Positions 15,001 through 63,043 of a stretch of 64,000 nt of DNA are shown piece after piece; positions within the stretch are counted from its first letter, which is position 1; each line of letters begins with the position of its first letter. Both the position numbers and the translations under genes were made by a program. The stretch covers positions 14,387,288-14,451,287 of the forward strand of contig NC_092020.1 of assembly GCF_042242105.1 (NCBI RefSeq). The letters are read 5' to 3'. Under the pieces are notes generated by a model. The model saw only the letters and a program-made list of their open reading frames with translations, was not told the origin of the DNA and did no database searches. The stretch comes from Pempheris klunzingeri (Eukaryota > Chordata > Actinopteri > Acropomatiformes > Pempheridae).

Positions 15001-17182
15001 ATGAGGAAGTTCGGCGGGCCAGGGCGCATGAAGAAGAGCTGTATCATGAGACAGTGTCTAGCAGTGAGTTGTCATACCTGTCTTTGTATTTGTGGAACCA
15101 AGTAATTGCTGCCCCATTTTATATGTGTGCACCGCATATACAAGGAGAAGGTGTTGGACTGATACTCAAAATTGTGTTTAGTTACTGTTGTCAAGTGTCA
15201 TTCTTTTCAACTCCACAACTCTTCGTGCTTAAATGCTGATTATCAAAGAATATTCAAGATAACCAATGCAACAAATTGTTTAGGTTAGCACAGAATTTCT
15301 AAACTATGCCTTAAAAATGTGCAGTATTTACTTGTGACTTCTTGTATATATTTTATATTAGCTTTCAGAATTGTAAATCACAATCTGTATCAGATCAGAT
15401 CCAAAATTGATGATATTTTACCCGTAGTAACATTGATTAATAACGTTCATATATTGCTCCAGCCTGCCTTGCCCAACACAGCGCGATGCGCCATATGTGG
15501 AGAAGGGGAATCGGATGAATCAAATCCGAGCACTCACTCGCTCATGGAGTGCTCTGTCTGCTCGCAGATTGCCCATCGTCAATGCATTAAGGTAAACTGC
15601 TTCAGACATGGTGAAGGCCATAAGCCGAGTACATTACCCAATTATTGCATGGTTTGTTTTGCTGCCAACAAAGCTGCATTTGCAGGTCAGATCTGGTAGG
15701 TGGTGTTATAAACTTTTAACTGTTTTCATTTCAGGAGCCTGGTGAGGGGAAGATCAATAAAGACTTGCCCAGCTGCTGGGAATGTCCCAAATGTTACCAA
15801 GGCAAAGACACAGCATCCGAGGTATCAAATGCATAACTTCTCACTCCCATTTACCCTCTGTTTCTGTCTGTTCTCAGTTCATTAAATCTCCAGAGCAGCT
15901 TGTCCTTTCTTCCTTTCTCTTTAAAGTTTCATTTTTCAATAACTTTGACCCGTCATGTGGTGGTTGTTATTATTCAAAATGAACAATTACACCCTCTCTT
16001 CTTCAACCCCACCTGTCATCTCTTCCCGTTGTCCCACACCAGTCTTCCAGCGATGAGGAAAGTGAAGAGTCAGAGGGCTCCACCTCCTTGCCACCGTCCA
16101 AACTTGCGTATAGGGAAGGCATTGGTGTGGGTGACGGGGTGAGACGAGCAAGACGTAGCAGACCCCCATCCCGACCCACAGCACCACCACCTTCCCAGAA
16201 ACTGCTACTGCAGCATCAACAGAACCGCAAAAGAGCAAATGCACTGGAGCTCAGACTTAAGAAGAGGGTAAAGTGTTTGGCCATGATTTCTTTTTTCACT
16301 TGTGTGAATTGTGTTTTTGTTTTTGGGTGGGGGCAGGGAATGTGCAGTTTCTTTATGCCTAAATTAACCAAATCTCTCACTTTTTCCCCGAAGAGTTTTT
16401 CAGATTAATTCATTTAATTCTTAAGTGATCGATCCTGCTATGTTTTCAACTTTTGCACCCCTAACCTGTTTGTATTCATGATCCTCACTGAGTTAAGATG
16501 CTTTAAAAAAAAAAAATGCACAGTGACAATCTGCACAATGGAGAAGATGTATTAATTTAACATGTGGACAATTCTACATATCCTAAAAACTGATCTGAAA
16601 TTGGTTTGGCAGGTGCCATAGACGATGTGTGGCACCTCCTTAGACTTTTGGGTGTGGGTGTGTTTTGTTTTTTTTTTCTCTATTTGACATTTATCTCATT
16701 CCTCAACCCTGTTTCTGTTTGTTGCAGATAAAACTGGAGCGCAGCAAAATCTTAACGGTAAGCAATGCACTTATCTCTGTGATGTTTCTGTATTATATTT
16801 GAATAATACTACAGTGAATTTGGTTTCCCAAATGGATGTATTCATCCATGATGTTCATTGCAAAAAAACAGTACTGCTTTATTACACATCAGGGTAATTG
16901 AGATGTGGCACTTTTTTTGATGATTTTTGAAAAGCTTTTTCGGGAGCTGTATTTGAGTTTATCATTTGAAACATATGTTTTCTTATTGCCACTGGCCATT
17001 CGTTTTGTTCTTTCCCTCCCAACAGAAGCAGGCGTCTTTAGATCGTTCGCCCAGGCTGCTGAACTCCAGGGTGCTGTCCCGGCTACGCTCTCCAACCAGC
17101 AGACTATCTCAGGGCAGAGGCCGGGGCTCCACCTGGACAAGTGGCTCCCCTTACCAGACCTCTACAGGAGGAACTGGGTCCT

Positions 17183-17228
<46 letters not shown>

Positions 17229-17372
17229 ACAGCAGCAGTCTTCCCTCGGTCTGGTACTCGAGCCCAAGGGAGAGCCCCGCAGAGGGAGGGGAAGAGGGGT
17301 GAGGCTGCGTGGAGGAGGAGCAGGAAGAGGAATCAGAAGTGGTGCGAGCCACGGAGAGTTGGAGGAGAGCGA

Positions 17373-17406
<34 letters not shown>

Positions 17407-19712
17407 GACGAAGAGGAGGAAGATGAGAGGGGGCAGAACAATGGGAGGGGGTTGGATAAAGAGAACCAGCCACAGTCAAAGCGAGGAGGACGGTTAGCCA
17501 AAGAAAGAGATGAGGAAGGCAGTGAGGTGGCCAACCAAAACGGTGCGGAGGAGGATGAGGAGGAGGAGATGGAACAGGACAGTCAAACGGGGGGTAAAGA
17601 TGGCTCATATCTTAAAGTGACACTTCAAAGGCCAACCAGGGCCAAACGAGACGCATCAGCTATTGTCCCCAAATTGGAGGCTATCGCCCCTCAGACTGCC
17701 ACTCCAACAGTACACAACCAGACCAGAGCCCTCGTCAGACCCCCCATTAGAAACCACGGCCCCTGTCCCGATCAACACTCCAATAGGCACACACCACCAC
17801 ACACTCGCAGTGGTCACACAGACACTCGCAGCTCCCACCCAGAGAGGCTGGAGGCCTCTAAAAGAACCAAGCTGAGCAGGCCCGCTAAACTCAGCAATGG
17901 CGCCTCCAGTTCTACATCCTCTGAGCTTCCTCATCTCCGCACCCCTCTGTCCGCCCTGCAGGAAGGAGGGGGCGAGGCCGACAGGGAGAACGGCGGGAGC
18001 GGGCCGGGCTGCGAGAGGGAGGTGTGGGTGTCCGTCTTCCGCTACTTAAGTCGAGCAGATCTCTGCGTCTGCATGGCTGTATGCAAGAACTGGTACAAAT
18101 GGTAAGACAACTCAACTAATATATATGTTTTTTCGGGAGGGGGGGACACAAATCTCTCATAAAACCTTCAATCCCATCAACAGATAGACTGTGTTAATGT
18201 GCCAGTTAATTAACATTGAATATATAACACTGCTCATCTCATATTCAGGTTGAGAGCACTAAATAGGCTTCCACTACATACTGTAGTGTTTAAAAAAATA
18301 AGGTGATGAGACATCTTTGAATTGTAGTTATTTTACTTTTAGTTTCACGCTAAAAACCAAGAAGAGATTTAAAAGAGTTTGATAAAAATGGATGACTATG
18401 TCAATAATGAATGGATGTGTTCCTCATGAGCTCTGTGCTTGTCTGTAGGTGTTTAGACAAGCGGCTTTGGGCACGAATTGACCTGAGCATCAAACGCACC
18501 GTCACTCCTCAGGCCCTAACAGGCATCATAAAGAGACAGCCCGTCACGCTCGATCTCTCTTGGACCAACATCTCTAAAAAACAGCTCAACTGGCTTGTTA
18601 GCCGCCTGCCTGGTAGGTAAACACACACATACACACACTCTTTCATACTTCTTATTCTTATTTAATTAAAATATTCCCAATGTTGGATATGTAAATAAAT
18701 GTGATATGAAACAAAGAAATCACATCAATAAATAGGGTAAAAATCCATTTGTTTCATTTATGGTCATTTATTTATTGATGAATCCCAGGGTTTTCAAATG
18801 AATTCTGAATTAGTTGCCCTCTAACACAAATTAAACATAAATCTTTTACAGGGCTGAAGGATCTGATGCTGGCAGGTTGTTCGTGGTCATCCATTTCAGC
18901 TCTCTGCTCCTCTGGCTGCCCTCTCTTGCGTTCTCTCGACCTGCGGTATGCAGACGGGGTCAAAGACTCTCAGATCAGGGATCTAGTCACCCCTCCAGGT
19001 GAGCAAAGAGGAGCCTCAGAGGCTACAGATTGATGGGCACAAAATCAGTCAATTTGTCCAGTAATTAACTCTTAGCGCATCTTATTTTATACGACTTTCA
19101 TTTATTCATCATTTTCCTTCCATTTTGCAAACAAAAACAAAATTTTTTTTCCCCTCCTCTTCCCAAATTGCCTCTGTTCCAGGCTGTGACAACCGCAGTC
19201 AGTTGCGGACCATGCACTGTTTGCGACTAGCAGGCCTGGACATCAGTGACTCCACTCTGCGCCTGGTGATCCGACACATGCCCCATTTAACAAAACTGGA
19301 CCTCTCCCACTGCAACAGCCTCACCGACCACTCCATCAACCTGCTGACTGCAGTGGGCTCGTCCACCCGAAACACGCTCACAGAACTCAACCTGGGAGGT
19401 GAGAGATTGATGTGCCCTGCCAATATGCGAAACACAGAACACATTTTTTGTACAAAGAACACACACACACACACTGGGTTTGTTTTACTTCACTAGTACT
19501 AATGTGTCTGTGAACCTGTCTCTTCCCCAGGCTGCAGTAAACTGACAGACACTTGTCTAAAGTATCTCCGCCGCCTCTCTTGCATCTCGCTGCTCGATCT
19601 GCGAGGCTGTAAAGGCGTCTCCCGCAAGGCCTGTGAGGCCTTCATCTCCGAGCTGTCCGTCAACACGCTCTACTGCCTATCAGATGAAAAACTGATCCAG
19701 CGGATATCCTAA
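9073..19712 (+). CDS. kdm2a: Lysine-specific demethylase 2A (KDM2A/FBXL11)
   Basis: An Fe(II)/2-oxoglutarate dioxygenase that removes H3K36 mono- and dimethyl marks at CpG islands. Coding exons: 9073-9108, 10547-10685, 10848-10926, 11073-11119, 11482-11660, 11988-12094, 12241-12334, 12603-12756, 12867-12982, 13492-13618, 13741-14015, 14221-14298, 14809-15063, 15463-15591, 15735-15821, 16043-16267, 16728-16757, 17026-18101, 18449-18612, 18852-18998, 19183-19398, 19531-19712. All phases agree, giving 1,313 aa (human about 1,160). JmjC iron ligands are H210, D212 and H282. A CXXC zinc finger (about 516-562, with [12 protein letters not shown]), a PHD finger (about 563-634), an F-box (near 1060-1085, [15 protein letters not shown]) and C-terminal leucine-rich repeats follow. 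KDM2A rather than KDM2B is chosen from the N terminus ([20 protein letters not shown]) and the ending [14 protein letters not shown]. The extra length is mostly in exon 17026-18101, which carries an 18-glutamine tract and acidic-serine runs. Confidence 0.96.
17185..17238 (+). repeat. kdm2a: CAG repeat coding an 18-glutamine tract in kdm2a
   Basis: Eighteen glutamine codons in frame, sixteen CAG and two CAA (17218-17220 and 17227-17229), at about residues 773-790 between the PHD finger and the F-box. A second AGC/CAG run at about 17375-17406 codes serines, followed by a Glu/Asp stretch. Open antisense poly-Leu and poly-Cys frames over it are artefacts of the repeat. Confidence 0.93.
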
Positions 19713-30006: not shown

Positions 30007-30974
30007 GCTAGTCATATGAAAAAATTAGGACACCCTATGAAGCAAGTTCACCCCGAGAGCAGGCCGCAAGATGCTCCAAAACCCCTAAAATGTCATCACG
30101 GGACCTACAGCAGGCTCTTGCTACTGTTGATGTGAACGTGCATGCCTCTACACTCAGAAAGAGACTGCGCAAGTTTAACTTTCATTGGAAACCTCTGCTC
30201 TCTACGAGAAACATGAAGGCCAGACTGAAGTTTGCCAGAGAGAACGTAGACCGAGACCAGGACTTCTGGAATAATGTTCTTTGGACAGATGAGTCTAAAA
30301 TTGAATTATTTGGACACCAGAACAGAGGACATGTTTGGTATAAACCAAATACAGCATTCCAGGAAAATAACCTCATACCAACTGAAGCATGGAGGTGGAA
30401 GTGTCATGGTTTGGGGATGCTTTGCTGCAGCAGGACCTGGCCAGCTCACCATCATAGAATCCACCATGAATTCAACATGTGAGACCATCTGTAAAAAAAT
30501 TAAAGCTGAAGCGGAACTTGACCCTGCAACATGTCAACGACCTAAAACATACCAGTAAATGAGATGCTGTGGGGTGTCTTGACACGGGTTGTACATGCAA
30601 GAAACCCCTCAAACATCTCATAGCTGAAAGAATTCTGCGTTGAGGAGTGGGGCGAACTTTCCTCAGACTGATGTCAGAGACTGGCAGATGGCTACAAGAA
30701 GTCTCACTGAAGTTATTTCAGCCAAAGGGGGTAAGACTAGCTATTAGGGGGTAGGGTGTCCTAACTTTTTCCTTAGTTAGAATATGCATTTTTGTATATC
30801 TTTTGTTTAATGAGTAAAACAAGGTAAATTTTTGTTGTTTACCTGCAATTAAATCACTTTCTTTTCCAGAGATAAATAAAAACAAGATTATCGAAAAACA
30901 CATCGATATGTGAACATTTCTTAACAAAGAACTGAATATTTAATGGGGTGTCCTAAGTTTTTCACATGACTGTA
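30007..30974 (+). mobile_element. Tc1-like DNA transposon, inactive
   Basis: Terminal inverted repeats of about 32 bp, 30009-30042 and 30941-30974, share the core taggacaccc and enclose a decayed transposase frame. An extra internal copy of the repeat core lies at about 30752-30775, recalling the IR/DR layout of fish Tc1 elements. At about 970 bp it is shorter than typical 1.6-kb full-length Tc1 elements. Confidence 0.85.
30090..30582 (+). pseudogene. Broken Tc1-family transposase
   Basis: The first frame codes a recognisable transposase stretch (TLRKRLRKFNFHWKPLL, then VLWTDESKIELFGH with the first catalytic aspartate region). The frame shifts at about 30370-30395, after which HGGGSVMVWGCFAAAG appears in another frame. 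A third frame near 30520-30560 holds a relic of the second catalytic region (NDLKHTSK) followed by a stop. N-terminal DNA-binding and C-terminal parts are missing. It cannot make a working enzyme. Confidence 0.88.
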
Positions 30975-31966: not shown

Positions 31967-33041
31967 TTACGACTTACTACTACTGATATGATTCTCATAT
32001 GTGATGACTTCCTCTTCCTCCTTAGTTGCTTTGTCTGTGATTTCCCTCCGTATTTTTAAAACTTCCCGAAACTCTTCATCCAATTTAACTTAAACATACA
32101 AAAACATACAAACGTCACTCACTCATTTAGACCGACTTTACTTTCTCATACAAATATGTTGATACAAAACCAAAGCAGCTCTGTTAAGTAGTAATGTTAA
32201 GACAAATATTCACACTCATCCTCACCTAGCTTTATTTTGAGATCATGGGGACTGTCATCATCAGGACACAAGTATTCACCCTCCACTGGCTTGGCTGGAG
32301 GCGGCAGAAGCTCCTCTTTAGTCTGTGAGCGCAGCATGGGTGCCACTTGTGCCTTGGGTATTGTTTTAGGTGTAGGTGAGGTGATGCTGATGCACTTTGG
32401 AGCAGGTGGCACATCTGTTGAATACATACATAAACAGTATCTGTATCTGGTACTGAGCCTGAGGCCATTTGTGACAGCGGTGTCTCTCCTCACCAATGCG
32501 AGTGTCGTAGGGCTGAGATACCAAGTAGGGATGAAGACGGTACTCTGTCTTTTCAACAAAGTATTGAAGTACATCATTCAAGGTGGAGACTGTCACCTGG
32601 AGAGGAGAGGACACATGAGGAAAAGCAAAGAGGAAGACTGGCAAATGATGTTTGTCACATGTTGCTTGACTTGATTTAGATGTGGGTGGAAGGTTCAAGC
32701 ATAATAAACGGATTCTGATCCTGATCCTGTTGTGTATTCCAGACAAATGATTACATAAATGTTGTGCCGTTTTAGCACCTTATGTAATCTCAGCACACTT
32801 GTCACATGACAACATTTGAATTTTCTTTCACTGTACGCCACAATTAAATGTTGTAAAGCCACAGGACTTACTGCTGTGTCCAGTTCGATGACAAACCCTT
32901 TTTTTGTGGGGGTCACTCTGAAGTTCTTCATGACATGCCCACTGACACCAGGAAGAGGATAAAGAACAAGAACTACATTTTATGATACATTTTATATATG
33001 AAATCAATCAATCAATCAATCTATCAATCTATCAATCAATA

Positions 33042-33125
<84 letters not shown>

Positions 33126-34098
33126 AGACCTGGGTGTCACTTGTCTGAGGGTCAGGGCGTAGTTGTTGGTCAGGGTGGATGGGCGGAGGATGATGCCTCC
33201 ATACTCTGGATTTGCCTCCAACATCTGCTCAGCCTCCTGCCGAGTCACATTAAGGAAACACCTGCAGGAATCAGAGAGAAAATGAAAACTTGCTCATTCC
33301 CAGTGAAGGTGATAAAGGTGCAGGTTTGTTGTTTCAGATGTCAAGGGTTCCTGACTGACCTCTGACCCTTTATTAGTGATAAGTGATACTTGGCAGGCAG
33401 AAATAGCAGGAAGTGCTTGAGTTCGTCAGAGAGAGGAGGTAACGAGGAGGAGGAGGAGGAGGAAGAATCTGAAAAGGAAATTTTCAGGAGAGAGACTGTC
33501 CAACTCACGCAGGAATCTCAGGGGCTGTGGGATCAGGCTCCCCTTTGGCCGGTGGATGGGAAGGGGAGGGGGATGCTGAGAGCAGGAAGGATGGTCGGGG
33601 TGGGAGGGCTGGACGCTGCGTGGGCGCATTTCTTCTCCTCTCCTGAGCCAGAACCTCCTGCAGCAGCAACATCTGGCCAGGCAGCAGCTGCAGGTTACTG
33701 GGAATCTCTTTCTGCAGGTAAACAGAGCTCGTGTTTTACTCAGTGTTAATACCGCCAATTTGACACAGTTTGGTAACAGGTTAGAAAATACACCTTACTA
33801 TGCTGTTTTATTTTCTCAGAAATCATGTGTCTGAAAGCCTCATGATCCAAAGTCTGGCCTAATTATTAACCAGGAAACACTTTTTTAATGTTTGTTGCAT
33901 TTGGCTTTGTGTGCCAAATGGGTGAGGTATTATACACAGCAATGAATTATTTCCAAAAATGGTGCAAAAAACACACATTGATCTATATCCAGTTTTATGT
34001 ATAGTTACATATATGTTCTTGGAGCTGGTTTGAATCCACACATTAAGGGTTATTTCTTTTTTACGAACTCAAAGCAATATTCGACCTGGTGTTAAGCT

Positions 34099-34140
<42 letters not shown>

Positions 34141-35069
34141 TGTGTTTGCTTACTTTGATCACAGTCAGGATGTAACCCCTCCACTCCTCTCCTGTGTCAG
34201 GATTGTCCATCTGCACAGTCACACAAACAGCAGACAGTTTGGTTATGTGCTGCTTACAAAAAACACAATTTGGGGTCAATGTGATTTTAATTTACTCAAA
34301 ATTCTGTCCATGTGATGTTTTGACTTTCTTTGTAAATTTGGAAGCTTTTGTGGATTCCTTCCAGTTTTTGGGCTGCGTGGATGTGAGGCTGACTTTTCCC
34401 TGAGGAACAGAAAAGAATCTGGGGCACACCTTCAGCTGCACCTCCTCTGTGGGCAGGGTGAGGGTGAAGATAGTTGGCGCCTTTTTCATATATGGACAAT
34501 CTAACTCCATGGATTTCAGCTCCTCTAGTTCCAGCTTCTCTATGTACTGAAGCAAACAAACATACAAACAAACAAACAAAAAGGTGAGAATTCTCATGTT
34601 ATCAGACACGAACATGTATTATTTGATCTAAAATAATATTTTTGCTTGTTTTTCTGTTATTATATGATTAACAGAAAAACAAATGTATGCATTTCTATTC
34701 TTGGGCAAGCAAAGTTTAATTAATCATGTAAAAATATATTCTTTTAAATCACAATTTTCCTATTAATAAAGTTAAGATAGACGAGCAGGTCAAACAGTTT
34801 CTTACTGTATCCTGTGTGTCATCTTTGTACAGAAAGAGCGTGGCTGCACGGAGCTCTCCGTAGTAATTCTTGAAATCCTGAAAATCATAACAGTCATGTT
34901 GAATGTTGAACATGTTGAATTTCTGCACTTGACACAGCTATCACATTCAAACATTAAAAAGAGTCACCTTCTCACTGCTGTGTTTCTTCAGCAGGTGTCC
35001 AGAGTAGTAGAGAGGCAGAGCCGTGATAGTCGCCCTCCTTTTGTGGACAACTCTGGGGTGTGCAGACAT
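31967..35069 (-). CDS. Signal-transducing adaptor protein, STAP family (stap1/stap2-like)
   Basis: A PH-SH2 docking protein that works downstream of tyrosine kinases and cytokine receptors. Exons from 5' to 3' on the minus strand: 35069-34968, 34877-34806, 34546-34430, 34210-34154, 33711-33509, 33261-33130, 32941-32872, 32596-32494, 32414-32226, 32088-31967; 388 aa, all phases agree. PH domain about 16-120 (TALPLYYSGHLLKK; DTGEEWRGYILTV). SH2 domain about 185-285 with the phosphotyrosine-binding arginine at R210 (IILRP). A proline-rich tail carries two candidate phosphotyrosine sites, Y333 (GEYLCP) and Y379 (YENH, a Grb2-type pYxN motif). The PH and SH2 wording is closer to STAP1 (PACF, EEVQLK), but length and tail are STAP2-like (human STAP1 295 aa, STAP2 403 aa), so the paralogue is left open. 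Confidence 0.87.
33043..33125. repeat. (ATCT)n tetranucleotide microsatellite
   Basis: An uninterrupted ATCT tract, preceded by degenerate ATCA/ATCT units from 33002. On the STAP gene strand it reads (GATA)n and begins directly at the splice donor of exon 33261-33130. Confidence 0.97.
34101..34137. repeat. (GT)n microsatellite in STAP intron
   Basis: About 18 GT units, reading (AC)n on the gene strand, starting about 16 bp past the donor of exon 34210-34154. Confidence 0.95.
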
Positions 35070-35479: not shown

Positions 35480-38197
35480 GCCATAAAAAGGTTCAGTTTG
35501 TATTTATTGTACTCTTGATGTGATTGTGGAGACATTAATAAAAGAAAATAGATGAAAGAATTAAATGAAATGAACATTACTGACAATAAATACATGAAGA
35601 TAAAGTCTATAAAGTCAGCATGTATAAATCTGAAGCCTACATGAATAATTTCATGATTATTGTAAATTCTCCCTGCAAACATTTATAGATACAGTATGTA
35701 TGTATTTATAAAAAGATGAAAGGGTGTTTTTAACACCTGACTAGTTAACTAGTTAATATTTCTCTATTTTATAGTGGTACCATGTAGTTTTTGTCACAAG
35801 TGACAGATATGTTAGTAGCTAAAACTTTTTAAACGTATTATTATTATTGTTGTTGTTGTTATTGTTATTCTTCTATTTTCTACACTGATATAGTTGTTCT
35901 GATGTATCCACATTTATAAATAGTAGCTGTAGGTTTATAGTAGACTGATATTAGTAATGGTACAGTCAGTCCAATCCCAGTTTAGTGTTTGTGGTTGATT
36001 CTTATTGGTCCTAAACCACCAAAAGGCTCACAATGATAATAACATCAGCTGAAGCATCTAAAAACTCTGTCAGATTATTAGTGTCAGCACCGCCCTCTGC
36101 TGCCTGCTCACACTCCCTGCAGATGCTGATGATGTGAGCCAGACGGTGGTGAACACATCTTGGGTGCTGGGTGATCAACACTGTGGAGAAAGATCATCAA
36201 TTATGATGATGATGATGATGAAGCCCCTCTGGTTGTTGAGACAGCAGGCATTGTAATGTAATGACTGTGTGTCCTCTGGGTGCCCACAGTGAAACCCACT
36301 GATCAGAATTGTAATATTGATTGAAAGTAGCCAATGCACCTTTATTTACCTACAAACAGGAATAAAACACATAAAATAGGCCTGCATGTAAGTATTTAAC
36401 AATATTGGATACGATGTTGGATTTACAGTATGTGTTCTTTCTCTTGTAATATTTCCCATAATGTATTGTAAAATAAAAGAGGGAAAACAGTGAGGCAAGA
36501 TGGTTTACCAATTCATCTGTGTCCATAATTTTTAATGTTTGATGTTAACCTGCCTTTTAAGAATTCTACAAAATAGTTAGCAATGAAAACTGTTGACAGG
36601 TTGTTTTCATGTGTAACATTCATCGTTGCAACCAAAAACAGAATTTAAATGTGTTTTCTACCTGTGACATTGCATGTTAGTTTCAGATTTATTATACACT
36701 TTTTAATGCTCATGTTGAATCACAGAACACAACCTGAGGCCTTCGGTTGGCTCCCTGCTGACTTTGTTTTCAGGACTCTAGACCAAAAATAAGAGCTCTG
36801 TTTTGGGTTGCCTGGTTTTGCTCTGTGTCACTTTAATCCAGCAACCACGGCTTGTCTCGTGATGCCCACTGGAGAAGTGGCTGCACAAAACTAATGCCTA
36901 GAAACATCTCATTACTGGGAGACTGCTGCAGGGTGAGAAGCCGGTTAAGACTTGTTTGTAAAAGTGAATCAGAGTCATGTCTCCTGTGTTAACCAATTGT
37001 CCTCATGAGCTGCGGCTTGAAAGTTTCAGCTCTGTGCAAACTTGCTGATATTGTTGCCTATAACCAGGCAAGTGACTGCCCCCTACTGATACAGGCCTCT
37101 AATACATGTCCAGATTGTCATTCTCTGTCTCCATACTGTAATTTAACTCCTGCCACTTCTGTCTATTCTGTATATATGACACCTACTGCAGGTCTGTCCA
37201 TCCTGGAAGAGGATTACCTCCTTTTGTTCATTTTATTTTATCATTAAAGTTTTTTCTCATTCAAATTTAGACTCGAGGGAGCAAGGGCGTTGTATGTTGA
37301 ACAGACTGTCTGTGAAAAAAATGTAGATTTTGGGCTTCAGAGGAAAAATGATTTGACTTGACATGTGCGATAATGCGAGATAATCTGCGATAAATTATAT
37401 CTCATATTTTATCGTATCATATCTTTGAATTTAAAGACAAATGCACACAGATTTTGTGCAAAACTGCTGAAATTTGAACATCTACAACACAAACAAATCC
37501 CAACAGTCGCCCACACAAGTACTTGTGAATGTACAACATGCATGCTGCTGTGTGTCTGTGGGTGTGTGCATGTGCTTCAAATGAAGAAACACAGTGAAAA
37601 TATTTACCACCTCCTCTACATGCCTCCTTCAGACCGATGACCACCTCTGGCCACTTTCTCAGCTGTGTTCTCTGACCCTGCTGGTCCCTCTGGCATCTCC
37701 CATGTCCTCCTTTAATTCGTCACGCTGGAGCGCAGGCCAAGGGACACTCTCTGAGGAGAGCAAACATTCACTGTTCTCCATCATGAGGCGTCTAATGATG
37801 CTCCCTTAAACCAGTCTCAGCCACTGAGGACGACATGGCCACAGGGGTGATGGGGATGGGGGATAATATGTTGGACTGATGAAGCTCTGTTAAGCCCCTG
37901 AAACAGCAGCATGTCTGTGCTCTTTGACTCCAAAGTTATGTAAATAAAACATGAAGATATGAGGAGGGTGAGGTCATTTCAGTTTTATTTCAACATGTTT
38001 GTAATTATGATTTAGGTTAACTCGATGTCTGTCATGTTGTAATAATTACAATTACATCCAATCCGGTTTTGAAATCTTCTTCCTGTCTTTGGGACTTATT
38101 TTCTTTCTTCTGAGGGCTTTCAGCTGTAATGACACAGAGGCCCTAAAGAAGAGGACAGATGAGAGAAAATCCTTTGAGAAATGCATTAAAGCTGAGG
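35070..38197. other. Intergenic region between the STAP gene and the Pax gene
   Basis: No gene is supported. It holds the C-run/CA microsatellite at 35414-35477, AT-rich unique-looking DNA, and a short module at about 37190-37260 (ggtctgtccatcctggaaga) resembling a common fish repeat. The STAP 5' UTR and promoter must lie in the first few hundred bases after 35,069. Open frames at 37005-37809 lack splice or family support. Confidence 0.55.
35414..35477. repeat. Compound (C)29(AC)n simple repeat
   Basis: Twenty-nine consecutive C residues (35414-35442) run straight into an AC tract (35443-35477). The minus strand is a G29 run. Its exact length is likely unreliable in sequencing. Confidence 0.95.
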
Positions 38198-41100
38198 TCA
38201 CATTAGACATAAGTATTCTGATGCAGACTGACCGAGGAGGTCTGGATTATGGTTGGCTGGCAGGCCGGGGTAAAAGGCGAGTCTGGAGAGAGAGGTCAGA
38301 CAGGGGTCAGACCATCCCCAGGCGTCATTACAGGGACACTGCTGGTCGTGGTAGACGCCACGGGAGACTTCCACTCCTGCAAAACAAAAGAGCTTCTGTC
38401 CAGATTCCCTTTTATTTCTCTTCCTCCCCTCACCCCCCTACTGAGATCGTCCCTTCTTCTAATTAGTAGAATGACAAAAAACATGCATGTGCATGCTGTA
38501 AGTATACACATCTGTCTGTGCAATCTCCCTCTCTAATGGTTGCAGTGATGGAAGAGTGGAGGTGTAAGTGGGCCTGTAATGAGAGGCTGAGGTGAGGGGG
38601 AGGTGTGGAGGAGCAGAGGGCCTGCTGGCTCAGAGGCCTGGGACGGCGAGGTGGGTCTCCTGCTGCGGAGGTTGTGTCAACCAGAGTAATATTAACACAG
38701 GACCACCAGCTTTACTCATCAGTCTGCTGTGTGGTCTGGTACCACAGAGAATCGACTGTAATCTCTGCTCTGTAATCTACACACCATGTTTTATCTAGTC
38801 TGGAGTCCTGCATTTGGTTTTGTTGCCAGTGGAGAAAGGTTATTTCTTTTTTGCAACAATTTGAAACAAATGGTTTCAGAAATGCTGTTGCATCAGTGCT
38901 TCATAATTTTCTTGATTTGAGTCGAGTGTTTTTTTGTGCTTTAGAAAATTCCTGAAAACAATGAAACAAAACACATGTAGAATCACTGACTTCACCCATA
39001 GGATTTCTGAGGTTTAGAAAATCGAATAAGATCGTATGAGTATAAAAAAGTATGAAGCTAACCTTTAAAGTCACAGTGAAGTGTCTTAAAGATCTTTTCC
39101 ACTAGCCCCTACATGCCTGCTCTGAGAAAACTGTGCAGTAGTTGTGTCCAACATACTCATTTATTTTATCAACTTGAGTCAGTGCTGCGATCACACAAGA
39201 AATGTGACATGATTAATTATACCACACTCAAATATGTTTGTCTGTATAACAAATGTGCTTGATTTCACTAATCAGTATATGACAAATACAGAGGATCTGC
39301 AAGCAGCAGAAGAAAATTCAACCAAATTGTGGAAAAAGTAAAGACAACATGCAAAACAAACATGAATAAAGTGTTAAATCTCACTTTGTTAAATTTCCAA
39401 ATTTGAAAGAGGCAGTAGCATTAAAGTCTCAGTTAGACTAACAATAGCATCTTTCTCTGTTACTACATAAAAATGAATTGGTTTGCTGTAATCCACTGTC
39501 CAAATACTATGAAGAAAAGTATATTTACATACTGTAAAAAAAATGGTAGCTGGTCATTGAGACAGAAGTTGTGGCTGCATTTAAGTTAATGGAACGATCT
39601 TTCTATTTACAAAACAGCTAAATGAAATTCAGCCTTCATTAATTTTATTATTTTACACCTGTGATTTTCCTACTGCTACATGTCAAGCTGAAACACACAT
39701 ACTCATACACACAGACACTGTCATTTAACATTTTCATGTAAACCTGAAAATAATCAGAAAGTTTGAGGATTCAGAAATATTTGAAAATAAGAGAAGATAT
39801 TTAAGATTCCCTTCCCCTGAAGCAAGAACACTCACTCTGATCAACTTTCCCTTTTGTACAAAGGAGTTAAGTTGGTCAGTGGCACATATTTGCTCAAAAG
39901 TGAGAAATAGTTCAGAATGTGAAATATTTCTTCATTTTACATGTCATAAACGCCTTGTGTTTTTAAAAGTCTCTGAATCCTCAAACATTTGGATTATTTA
40001 TTTCCAGCTTTCGGTGAAACTATGCACTAATCATGCCCACAGACCTTCTTTATCTTTGCTGCTGCATTTCCTGATTCCCAGAATTCCACTGATGGAATAG
40101 GTGGTCTCAGAGGAATAGGCTGTTCCCACGGCAACGGACGATGCTGGTGACACTGCAGGGTCAAAGGTCAGAGTCAAGGAAACAATAGAGAGGGACGGAT
40201 GGATCAACAGAGAGTGAAAGGGACAGAAAATCTTACCAACTTTGCAAGAGTCCGACTGGACTTTGTTTCTGATGATCCTGTAAAGACAGAATTAACTCAC
40301 TCAATGTTCAGTTTTCAGCCTCTGTGTCGCAACACACGAGTCCATCCGTACCTGTTGATGGAGCTGATGCTGGGCACGCTGTCCCGGTCACACACTCGCT
40401 CCAGCAGCAGCCTGTCTTGGATCTCCCAGGCGAACATGATGGGGTTGGTGTGTTTCAGATGCAGGATCGTTTGCACAACTCTGGGAGTGGCCACTTTGGG
40501 CTTAGAGCCCCCGATCACTCCTGGTCTGATGCTCCCTGTCTCATTGTACCTAAATTCACAACATTGATATCAGTCAGACTCAGGATGGCTGACATTCATA
40601 AAAGCTCAATAAATATACATATGTGAGTTGGAATAAAGAACTGCTATAGATTCCACTAGGTCTTCTTTTTAATTTACAGGGTTCACAAAAAGTTAGGGAT
40701 ATTCGACTTTCAGGTGAAATTTATGGAAAATGTAAAAAGTTAATGCTACAGTGATATTATATCATGAAAGTAGGACATTTAAGTATCAGCATGCAATGGT
40801 AGTTTCTTCATCTTAAACAGTTTATTGAAAGAAAATCTAACAACAGTGGAGGGTAAACGAGGGTAAACGTAAAATTGGGATGTGGCCAAAGGACGTCCAC
40901 TCCTCTCCTTTCTGTGACTCTTCCAGTCTCTGTATCTCTGTTGCAACCTGCTGATGACACTCTGTGACCCTCTAAGCTCAGTGGACACTTCTGCCTGAGG
41001 ACCTGTTTGAACCCTCCAGTGTTGAGATGCTGCTGATCAATAGTTAGGTGTCGTCTTGGTCTCATGATGTCAGAATGTGAACAGCACGATGAGGACTGTT

Positions 41101-41840
41101 AAAATACCAATTCTAACTGAACCAGGAAACGTATTGGTGGTGGTTCATCCTGAAATTTCACCTGAAAGCCGAATATCCCTAACTTTTTAAGTATTGTAAA
41201 AAAAAAGAAAAAAATACATTACATTCTGAATAACACATCCCAGGACGGCCATGAAAAGAAACATAATGCACTTTTAGGATGTGGGTGGTTTTCGTGTGTG
41301 AACATTGTACCACTTGTTGCTTTGTTTTGTCAAGTATTATACAATTATCAATTATATTATTATCAATTATAGTATATATCAATTATAGTATTATCATTAT
41401 CATTACAAGCAGCACCACTGTCACCCAGAATCTGCTTCATGACAGACAGTTCTGTCTATGAGTTAATGAATTCGTAAATAGGCTAAATAAGTAACGAAGC
41501 AGGATCCCCTTACCTGGCTAGTATTTTGCTGACACAGCCGTGACTGACGCGCAGGCGGCGGGAGATCTCGCCGGGACGCACGCCCCGCTGAGCGAGCTCC
41601 ACCATGCGCTGCCGCACCACCTGCGGCAGCGGGCGCCCGTTAATGAAGACACCGCCGAGCTGGTTCACCCCGCCGTGCCCTGCGCACCGGAGCGGATCAG
41701 TGAGACACGAACACGAAAAGGCTACACACACATGTAAGAATATAACTTACCGGTGGCACCTCATAGATTTAATGTGAGAAGAAACGTGGTTACTCACTGT
41801 GCGTAACGGTGAGCGGCACCTGTCCAAAGCGCACGTCCAT
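38198..41840 (-). CDS. Divergent Pax2/5/8-class transcription factor, pax5-like, without homeodomain
   Basis: Paired-box DNA-binding protein. Exons on the minus strand: 41840-41798, 41679-41514, 40549-40352, 40277-40237, 40152-40045, 38376-38198; 244 aa in phase. The paired domain (about 15-140) starts [18 protein letters not shown] and ends [12 protein letters not shown]. Exons 2 and 3 (166 and 198 bp) match the sizes I recall for PAX5. An octapeptide YSISGILG is at residues 168-175, as in Pax2/5/8. Changes include Gly51 where known Pax proteins have Cys (RPCDISR becomes RPGEISR). No partial homeodomain exon was found. The last exon, joined from a weak donor (gtctgt), gives [13 protein letters not shown] and [10 protein letters not shown], which aligns with the PAX5 tail GSEFSGSPYSHPQ and YNDSWRFPNP. 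If that intron is not removed, the protein stops at 40031-40033. Head-to-head with zcchc7, as for human PAX5. First five exons firm; last exon tentative. Confidence 0.82.
40686..41190 (-). mobile_element. Non-autonomous Tc1-like element in the Pax intron
   Basis: Inverted repeats of about 38 bp at 40686-40724 and 41148-41190 share aaaaagttagggatattcg and ctttcaggtgaaattt. Inside, the minus strand keeps a remnant of a Tc1-type N-terminal helix-turn-helix ([12 protein letters not shown], and in another frame [13 protein letters not shown]), then ends. At about 500 bp it is a deletion derivative. It sits between the two main paired-domain exons. Confidence 0.82.
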
Positions 41841-43252
41841 CACAGACGGTCTGACTCTAAGACGTCTCCAGCCTCACTCGACTTCAGGACGGCACATTGC
41901 TCGCTCATTCAAGGTTTAAGAGAGCACTGTTCAGATTTTGTGCAGTGTGTTTTTGTCTAAGCAGTGGCTGCAGTCCGCGTTCAGCACCTGAGCCTGGTAG
42001 GCGGTATGAGCCTTTGGCAGGACGCGCACGCACGGGTGTACGCGCTCTATTACCTGTTTGCGTTAAAGCGTCAGAGCTGTGGCCACGACTTTAGAAATCA
42101 GAAAAAAAAAAAACAGAAGTAATGTTGAGCCCAGGTCATCTTATACAAGCGCCTCCAGACACCGCAAGTTTTCATTCAGTTGGCTGTTCAGTGATATACA
42201 TTTGATTGTCCAATGTGATGGTCTACTAAGTCATCAATAAACTTAAATGTGTTAAAAGTTTGATGAGCATCTCTACTGTGGAAGCCCAGCACCATAGCCC
42301 TTTAAACCCATTTCACTTACGTCGTCGTAGTAATATAAATATAGTCTAAAAGGCTGGAATCGGCCCATAAAATATCCACCGTGCGTTAGGTTTTAAAATG
42401 CACAATATCATTTTGAAGTTCTTACATTTATTGAGTGATTCCATTTGTTTATATTGCCACATTATATACTTCAGAGTTAAATATCGTACTTTTCACTCCT
42501 CCATATTTATCTGACTGCTAAAGTTATCGATTAATTTGCTACCAGATTGGAAGTCGTTGCTATGGGAACAACAAGCTGTTGCCAGCAAACACAACAACAA
42601 AATAAACTTACACCGTGTCTTACAGCAAGTGAGCGAGACATTAATAATGGAAATATAACAAAACAGTGTACCATCTTATATTGCAAACGATAAAGTATAT
42701 GCATTAACAATTCTAATCCAGGGCTTTCCAGAGTGTAATTATTACCAATCTCCATGTTTATCTAACTCCGGGGGCAGTTTTGGTTGTCCAACGTTTTAAT
42801 TCCCGGAAACGCCGGGTAAAGTGCTGAAAGCCTGTAAACAAGAAGTAAAGTAACAACCATACAGCTAAATGGGGTGAAATTTTGTCTAGTGTGAAGTCAC
42901 GACCGAGATATGGCGAACTAGAAACGGTGAGCGCCCTAAAAGTGCCATTATACATTTCACTTGGATGTGTTCGCTAAGTTAGCTGTTGAACTGCCGCAGC
43001 TACTACAGAGCTAACGTTAGCTAACGTTAGCATAGCATAGCATGTTAACCCACATGTCAGTATAGTTTTCATACCTACCTCATAATTACACACTTGTAGA
43101 CAGAAATCCTATACCAGGGAGTTTTACTTCTGCCCGGCGCCAGTTATTAAGAAGTTAATGTGATAAATGAGCCATTAGCCGCCGGTGTTTGATAGCAGTG
43201 AGGTGAGCCGTCATTGGGTGTCGCTGTTCAGCTGCTGTTTTCGGGCCATACT
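41841..43252. promoter_or_regulatory. Shared upstream region of the Pax gene and zcchc7 (head-to-head)
   Basis: About 1.4 kb separates the two divergent start codons. The zcchc7 side (42,760-43,250) is CpG-containing with tandem GCTAACGTTAGC motifs at 43011-43036. The middle (42,100-42,700) is AT-rich with nothing recognisable. No TATA box could be assigned with confidence. Confidence 0.5.

Positions 43253-52898: not shown

Positions 52899-63043
<10,145 letters not shown>

Follow-up and report, generated by a model that had tools for sequence, protein, structure and literature searches.

The paired domains of the Pax2/5/8 class are almost frozen in vertebrates. In Pax5, DNA binding belongs to the paired domain, Groucho-type corepressors are bound by the octapeptide and TBP by the partial homeodomain, and most of the regulatory activity resides in the regions encoded by exons 8-9 (CRD1) and 10 (CRD2) (PMC10509461). 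In mouse, the removal of both CRDs arrested B-cell development, and that of the octapeptide or the homeodomain alone had small effects; deletion of both C-terminal domains impaired repression as well as activation (PMC10509461). In the comparison printed in PMC6132355, exon 1B is given as MEIHCKHDPFAAMH for zebrafish and Fugu and is nearly invariant from human onwards, exon 1A is absent for these two fishes in the printed table, and Zcchc7 adjoins Pax5 in mouse and human, its orientation being also given.

Concerning duplicates, the pertinent passage on eight complete ray-finned genomes reports extra copies of seven of the nine PAX genes, PAX5 and PAX8 being the exceptions (PMC3759438), and the passage on teleost duplicates in PMC2532684 names only pax2 within the Pax2/5/8 class. 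A literature search covering titles and abstract openings retrieved no publication on a second fish pax5. In an eel paper, one locus is listed in a table as 'paired box protein Pax-5-like' (PMC9780358), and annotation may already hold such Pax-5-like genes. Here we compare these systems with a locus of Pempheris klunzingeri located in a 64-kb stretch of DNA, hereafter referred to as the window, which contains a gene whose assignment to the PAX5 class is supported by its sequence, exon structure, tree position and neighbours.

Organization of the gene

The locus consists of one pax gene, which occupies 38198-41840 on the minus strand and is divided into six coding exons (Table 1). All of them join in frame through GT-AG introns and the long spliced product has 244 aa, with a coding span of only 3.6 kb. 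The interval proposed by the first-pass annotation corresponded exactly to the stretch from the ATG (41840) to the end of the stop codon (38198) of this long form, and the PAX5-sized exons 2 and 3 that it had announced were found (166 and 198 nt). Donor sites were ranked with a simple donor matrix among the 236 GTs present in 38100-42000. If the weak donor of exon 5 were unused, a 189-aa form ending at 40031 would arise, and an AATAAA is found at 40002-39997, 28 nt past this end, a hexamer whose density on this strand of the window is in any case 1.2 per kb.

Table 1. Features of the pax5-like gene in the window
Feature	Position	Strand	Description
Exon 1	41798..41840	-	43 nt; ATG start, 14 codons, phase 1 donor gtgagt (10/236); PAX5-1B/PAX2-type first exon
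Exon 2	41514..41679	-	166 nt; first half of paired domain; donor 1/236
Exon 3	40352..40549	-	198 nt; linker and RED half of paired domain; donor 4/236
Exon 4	40237..40277	-	41 nt; end of paired domain; donor 5/236
Exon 5	40045..40152	-	108 nt; octapeptide YSISGILG; weak donor gtctgt, 14/236
Exon 5 read-through	40031..40044	-	GLWA, then stop; alternative short form, 189 aa
Possible exon 8 relic	38549..38620	-	in-frame TGA four codons upstream; lacks a good donor
Last coding exon, 244-aa form	38198..38376	-	PAX5 exon 9 homologue at 38376-38233, then donor gtcagt or read-through to stop

Two repeats were also observed among the exons. About 45 nt after exon 5 there is an inverted repeat (39748-39999) with 40-nt arms that are 83% complementary, the outer arm overlapping the AATAAA that could end a short transcript. 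Intron 2 carries a MITE-like element (40687-41188) with terminal 41-nt inverted repeats 93% complementary to each other.

Exon 1 has the 14 codons and the phase 1 of PAX5 exon 1B, and its peptide is unlike the MEIHCKHDPFAAMH of zebrafish and Fugu. As this sequence is near-invariant, the departure makes the gene look unlike an ordinary teleost pax5, and it counts in favour of a plausible origin by the teleost genome duplication. Among the 1254 ATG-started stretches of 14 codons in the window, that of the gene included, 6 score as well with PAX5 exon 1B and 3 with PAX2 exon 1; when a GT is required in the right place, one of 91 such stretches scores as well. Identity with exon 1A was discarded, the letters of exon 1 being without resemblance to it. 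The octapeptide claimed at first sight is present in exon 5 in a form identical to that of PAX5, whereas PAX2 and PAX8 carry the Asn form.

Class and divergence of the paired domain

The region of exons 1-5 encodes a complete paired domain of 127 residues. PAX5 was the best of the four paired-domain sequences in the PDB (219.1 bits), followed by PAX8 (211.5), PAX6 (177.2) and Prd (172.4), and the Pfam PAX family matched the gene with an E value of 2.6e-63 and 212 bits, the same family giving 250 bits on human PAX5. Identity was 101/127 (79.5%) with PAX5, 99 with PAX2 and 98 with PAX8, and it ranged from 72 to 88 of 125-127 residues in the nine other sequences compared. At position 107, the sole site of the domain where PAX5 is unlike both PAX2 and PAX8, the gene has the Arg of PAX5; at position 64, an Arg is common to the gene and PAX8.

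The presence of a paired domain and its wide divergence, both asserted by the first-pass annotation, were thus confirmed, including the 16-residue stretch that it had quoted as an example. The 26 residues of the 127 that differ from PAX5 are distributed as 15/52 in the RED half, 10/59 in the PAI half and 1/16 in the linker. One of them is Gln42 -> Arg, in the recognition helix, at one of the three positions setting Pax5 versus Pax6 specificity. Another is Cys37 -> Gly, which affects a redox-sensitive cysteine present in every one of the 12 other compared sequences. Three redox-sensitive cysteines are mentioned for the PAX8 paired domain in a passage of a review.

A phylogeny of the paired domain had been suggested as a check, and the best tree, built from 13 rows, placed the gene beside PAX5 (support 59/84) and within Pax2/5/8 (76/94). 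None of the starred sets of this tree contains the gene, and the support of the Pax2/5/8 class is also unstarred. The branch of the gene has a length of 0.32 versus 0 for PAX5, 0.014 for PAX2 and 0.053 for PAX8, that is, about six times that of PAX8, in agreement with the fast evolution that had been suspected. A tree uniting the gene with Pox meso and the group I genes PAX1 and PAX9 was rejected (p-AU 0.036). The corresponding grouping with Pox neuro was not rejected with these 13 rows (p-AU 0.295), and some paired-domain residues are shared with Pox neuro, which would suit a surviving vertebrate member of a class that is held to be lost in vertebrates. However, such an identity is barely credible, as the gene shares 88/126 residues with Pox neuro versus 101/127 with PAX5, and has an exon 1B-type start, the PAX5 octapeptide, an exon 9 homologue and PAX5 neighbours, the last two being described below.

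Exons behind the octapeptide

Neither an exon for the partial homeodomain nor one for the activation domain had been noticed in the initial reading. The first of these absences held as far as it was searched. In 35.7-40.04 kb no match to exon 6, which encodes the partial homeodomain, rose above chance, since 114 and 81 of 200 shuffles reached the best match with PAX5 and PAX2, respectively. No exon 7 was found either (5 and 54 of 200 shuffles), the PAX5 match reached by 5/200 being rejected because it falls within exon 9 but not in its reading frame. For exon 10, encoding the inhibitory domain, 41 and 16 of 200 shuffles reached the best local match with PAX5 and PAX2, and a splice-aware search of 35.7-38.23 kb yielded no similar terminal exon candidate. 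Splice-aware searches for exons 6, 7 and 10 with relaxed limits were also empty, and when other frames and phases were allowed, a homeodomain or an exon 7 appeared only at chance level, both in these searches and in local alignments. The gene is PAX5-class by descent and its architecture, in the stretch searched, lacks the partial homeodomain of group II; therefore, it belongs to Pax2/5/8 without being a canonical group II protein.

The second absence was only partly right, as exon 8 is at most a relic and the last exon of the gene itself is the homologue of PAX5 exon 9, which is part of the activation domain. Compared with exon 9 of PAX5 and PAX2, the stretch at 38376-38233 scored 41 and was the best of 1842 candidates. 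These were drawn from both strands of the window and had to have an open frame, phase 1 at either end and splice sites within relaxed limits; the next independent candidate scored 14. Under stricter splice limits none of 200 shuffles of the region reached its score. Local alignment without splice sites was weaker (3/200 shuffles with PAX5 and 0/200 with PAX2), and plain tblastn gave only an E value of 5.8. The homologue starts with GVEVSRGVY (GSEFSGSPY in PAX5), has an inner NDAW (NDSW) and ends with NPDLLG at the GT (NPGLLG). It is 19 residues longer than the PAX5 exon and mostly rewritten, with an open frame and both splice sites kept.

The exon 8-like stretch had a score that 0/200 shuffles reached, with PAX5 and also with PAX2. 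As two proline-rich tiles of RNF38 outscored it (58 and 54 versus 51) and it contains a match of 7 residues to PAX8 exon 10, it was considered a possible relic at most. The best GTs in its vicinity score -2.1 and -2.7. Pfam Pax2_C had no score on the gene model and was the only family listed for the joined exon 8 and 9 pieces, with an E value of 0.068 that falls short of the cut-off.

The donor-like gtcagt that follows NPDLLG would call for an exon 10, as expected if exons 6-8 and 10 had been missed for being distant or too diverged and the gene encoded a full-length diverged Pax5. We consider this very improbable, because exons 6-8 would need to lie in 40045-38376, which was covered with relaxed splice limits, and the 35.7-38.23 kb region is without exon 10 and gives way to a STAP1-like gene.

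Selection and decay

The substitutions were compared with those of a neutral simulation in which a PAX5-like ancestor, with inferred codons, was randomly mutated up to 26 amino-acid changes in 5000 runs, a process requiring 0.11 mutations per site. Only 2 of the 58 family-invariant columns (Ile26 and Cys37) were changed versus 11.8 expected (P 0.0002), these columns being defined from 12 sequences. In addition, 11 of the 26 new residues are seen in another Pax at the same column, versus a mean of 3.6 (P 0.0002). The replacements are also conservative, with a BLOSUM sum of 8 versus -18.6 (P 0.002). The best scores for exons 6 and 7 were 30 and 36 versus means of 155 and 126 under a decay equal to that of the paired domain, which indicates a longer period of free change in the C-terminal exons than in the paired domain. 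Since the changes in the latter avoid family-invariant columns, it was under selection as it evolved, and decay affected the exons behind it. Marks of past purifying selection on the paired domain are thus supported, and the pattern favours a gene kept for its paired domain and octapeptide rather than its wholesale death.

Such death, nevertheless, had to be weighed. A pax5 copy that worked for a long time, lost its C-terminus first and died recently, with its paired domain still unbroken, would explain why exons 6, 7 and 10 were not found, why exon 8 is at most a donorless relic, why the donor of exon 5 is weak, and why Cys37 and Ile26 were changed at family-invariant columns. We regard a pseudogene of this kind as rather unlikely, because the six exons are in frame with usable splice sites, exon 9 is open and keeps both its sites, and the pattern of substitutions is far from neutral, although the zero stops are by themselves uninformative (P 0.35).

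Genomic context

In agreement with the initial reading, a zcchc7-like gene (tblastn E 6e-8, a piece of the human protein being the query) lies head-to-head with the pax gene, at about 1.4 kb from its ATG when the first in-frame ATG is taken by eye. It is followed by an RNF38-like gene, assigned as such because RNF38 outscored RNF44 at 9/9 places where both match. RNF38 is near PAX5 in human also, but its placement differs from the human order, since here it is on the far side of zcchc7. No match to MELK was obtained within the 64-kb window. A long His/Asn-rich stretch, not known from the human protein, was observed in the RNF38-like gene (58904-59389).

The other flank, 3' of the pax gene, contains a STAP1-like gene (32492-35057) and a KDM2A/B-like gene for which KDM2A and KDM2B are indistinguishable (77.3 and 75.1 bits). 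The STAP1 label is tentative, as PDB searches with two STAP fragments gave noise-level matches or none. Neither STAP1 nor KDM2A/B is known to be a neighbour of PAX5 in human, and this foreign flank indicates a synteny break immediately 3' of the pax gene. In mammals, STAP1 serves as an adaptor of B cells, and its vicinity to a pax5-like gene is probably a coincidence. The KDM2-like gene shows a long glutamine run ahead of the F-box exon (16957-18105), and frames resembling a broken Tc1/mariner transposase were seen by eye at 30012-30558. A search of the window at Rfam gathering thresholds gave no matches, and no relatives of the gene appeared in viral contigs (41 pattern matches) or genome contigs (187), as expected for an animal gene.

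The PAX5-type neighbourhood formed by zcchc7 and RNF38 would also be that of the only pax5 of this species, changing fast in its lineage without any duplicate. However, this is improbable, as fish Pax5 is near-invariant in exon 1B, in the printed sequences of PMC6132355, and in its C-terminus, according to PMC10509461; besides, B-cell development is blocked in mice whose Pax5 has lost the C-terminal domains (PMC10509461), so the consequences would be drastic.

Proposed role and comparison with known Pax genes

We favour, with a probability of roughly 0.55, a PAX5 co-orthologue, most likely a copy retained from the teleost genome duplication, that would act as a repressor or competitor of 189-244 residues against full-length Pax2, Pax5 and Pax8. 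The duplication origin is in itself plausible, and the expression, DNA binding, repression and competition of the pax5-like protein are predicted from sequence. The protein would comprise an exon-1B-type N-terminus, the complete paired domain, an octapeptide that remains intact and, at most, an exon 9 in rewritten form. Its partial homeodomain, its inhibitory domain and the greater part of its activation domain have presumably been lost. It would most probably bind Pax2/5/8-type sites with an altered preference, given Gln42 -> Arg and a RED half that is the most changed part, and it might then recruit Groucho/TLE through the octapeptide or simply occupy the site. The outcome would be repression of, or competition with, the full-length proteins. 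As the CRDs carry most of the Pax5 activity, a CRD-poor protein should occupy Pax2/5/8 sites without much activation; since repression in mouse also needs the CRDs, a paired domain with an octapeptide may be a weak repressor. Against this co-orthologue, the weak exon 5 donor, the possibly broken exon 8 and the absent exon 10 also fit a dying gene; the support for PAX5 as sister is low (59/84), and Cys37 is replaced by Gly.

A bolder proposal, which we put forward tentatively and judge doubtful, is that of a dominant-negative Pax5 gene: a second pax5, present in some fishes and stripped of its activation machinery, with the paired domain (Q42R) and the Groucho-binding octapeptide kept by selection, serving as a separately encoded Pax2/5/8 repressor in the programmes of brain, ear, kidney or B cells. 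If true, a pax5 retained in such a reduced form would offer a natural test of the functions left to a paired domain and an octapeptide without an activation domain, would show how a master regulator can become an antagonist of itself, and could alter the interpretation of fish studies on 'the' pax5.

Vertebrate PAX5 (BSAP) in its exon 1B form shares with this gene the sizes and phases of exons 1-3, the octapeptide, both ends of exon 9 and the head-to-head zcchc7. The gene differs from it in 26/127 paired-domain changes, including Q42R and C37G, in a mostly rewritten exon 9 with 19 additional residues, in an exon 8 that is at most a relic, and in that exons 6, 7 and 10 were not found. Pax1 and Pax9 (group I) similarly combine a paired domain and an octapeptide with no homeodomain, and share some residues (ARYNETGSI); unlike them, the gene has the exons and neighbours of PAX5, and its grouping with PAX1, PAX9 and Pox meso has a p-AU of 0.036. 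C-terminally truncated PAX5 isoforms, which are splice products of the normal gene, similarly keep the paired domain and the octapeptide. Finally, the mouse knock-in of Pax5 without CRD1 and CRD2 (PMC10509461) is an engineered allele, whereas here there would be a separate gene from which the partial homeodomain is also missing; in both, the paired domain and the octapeptide are kept and the activation region is gone.
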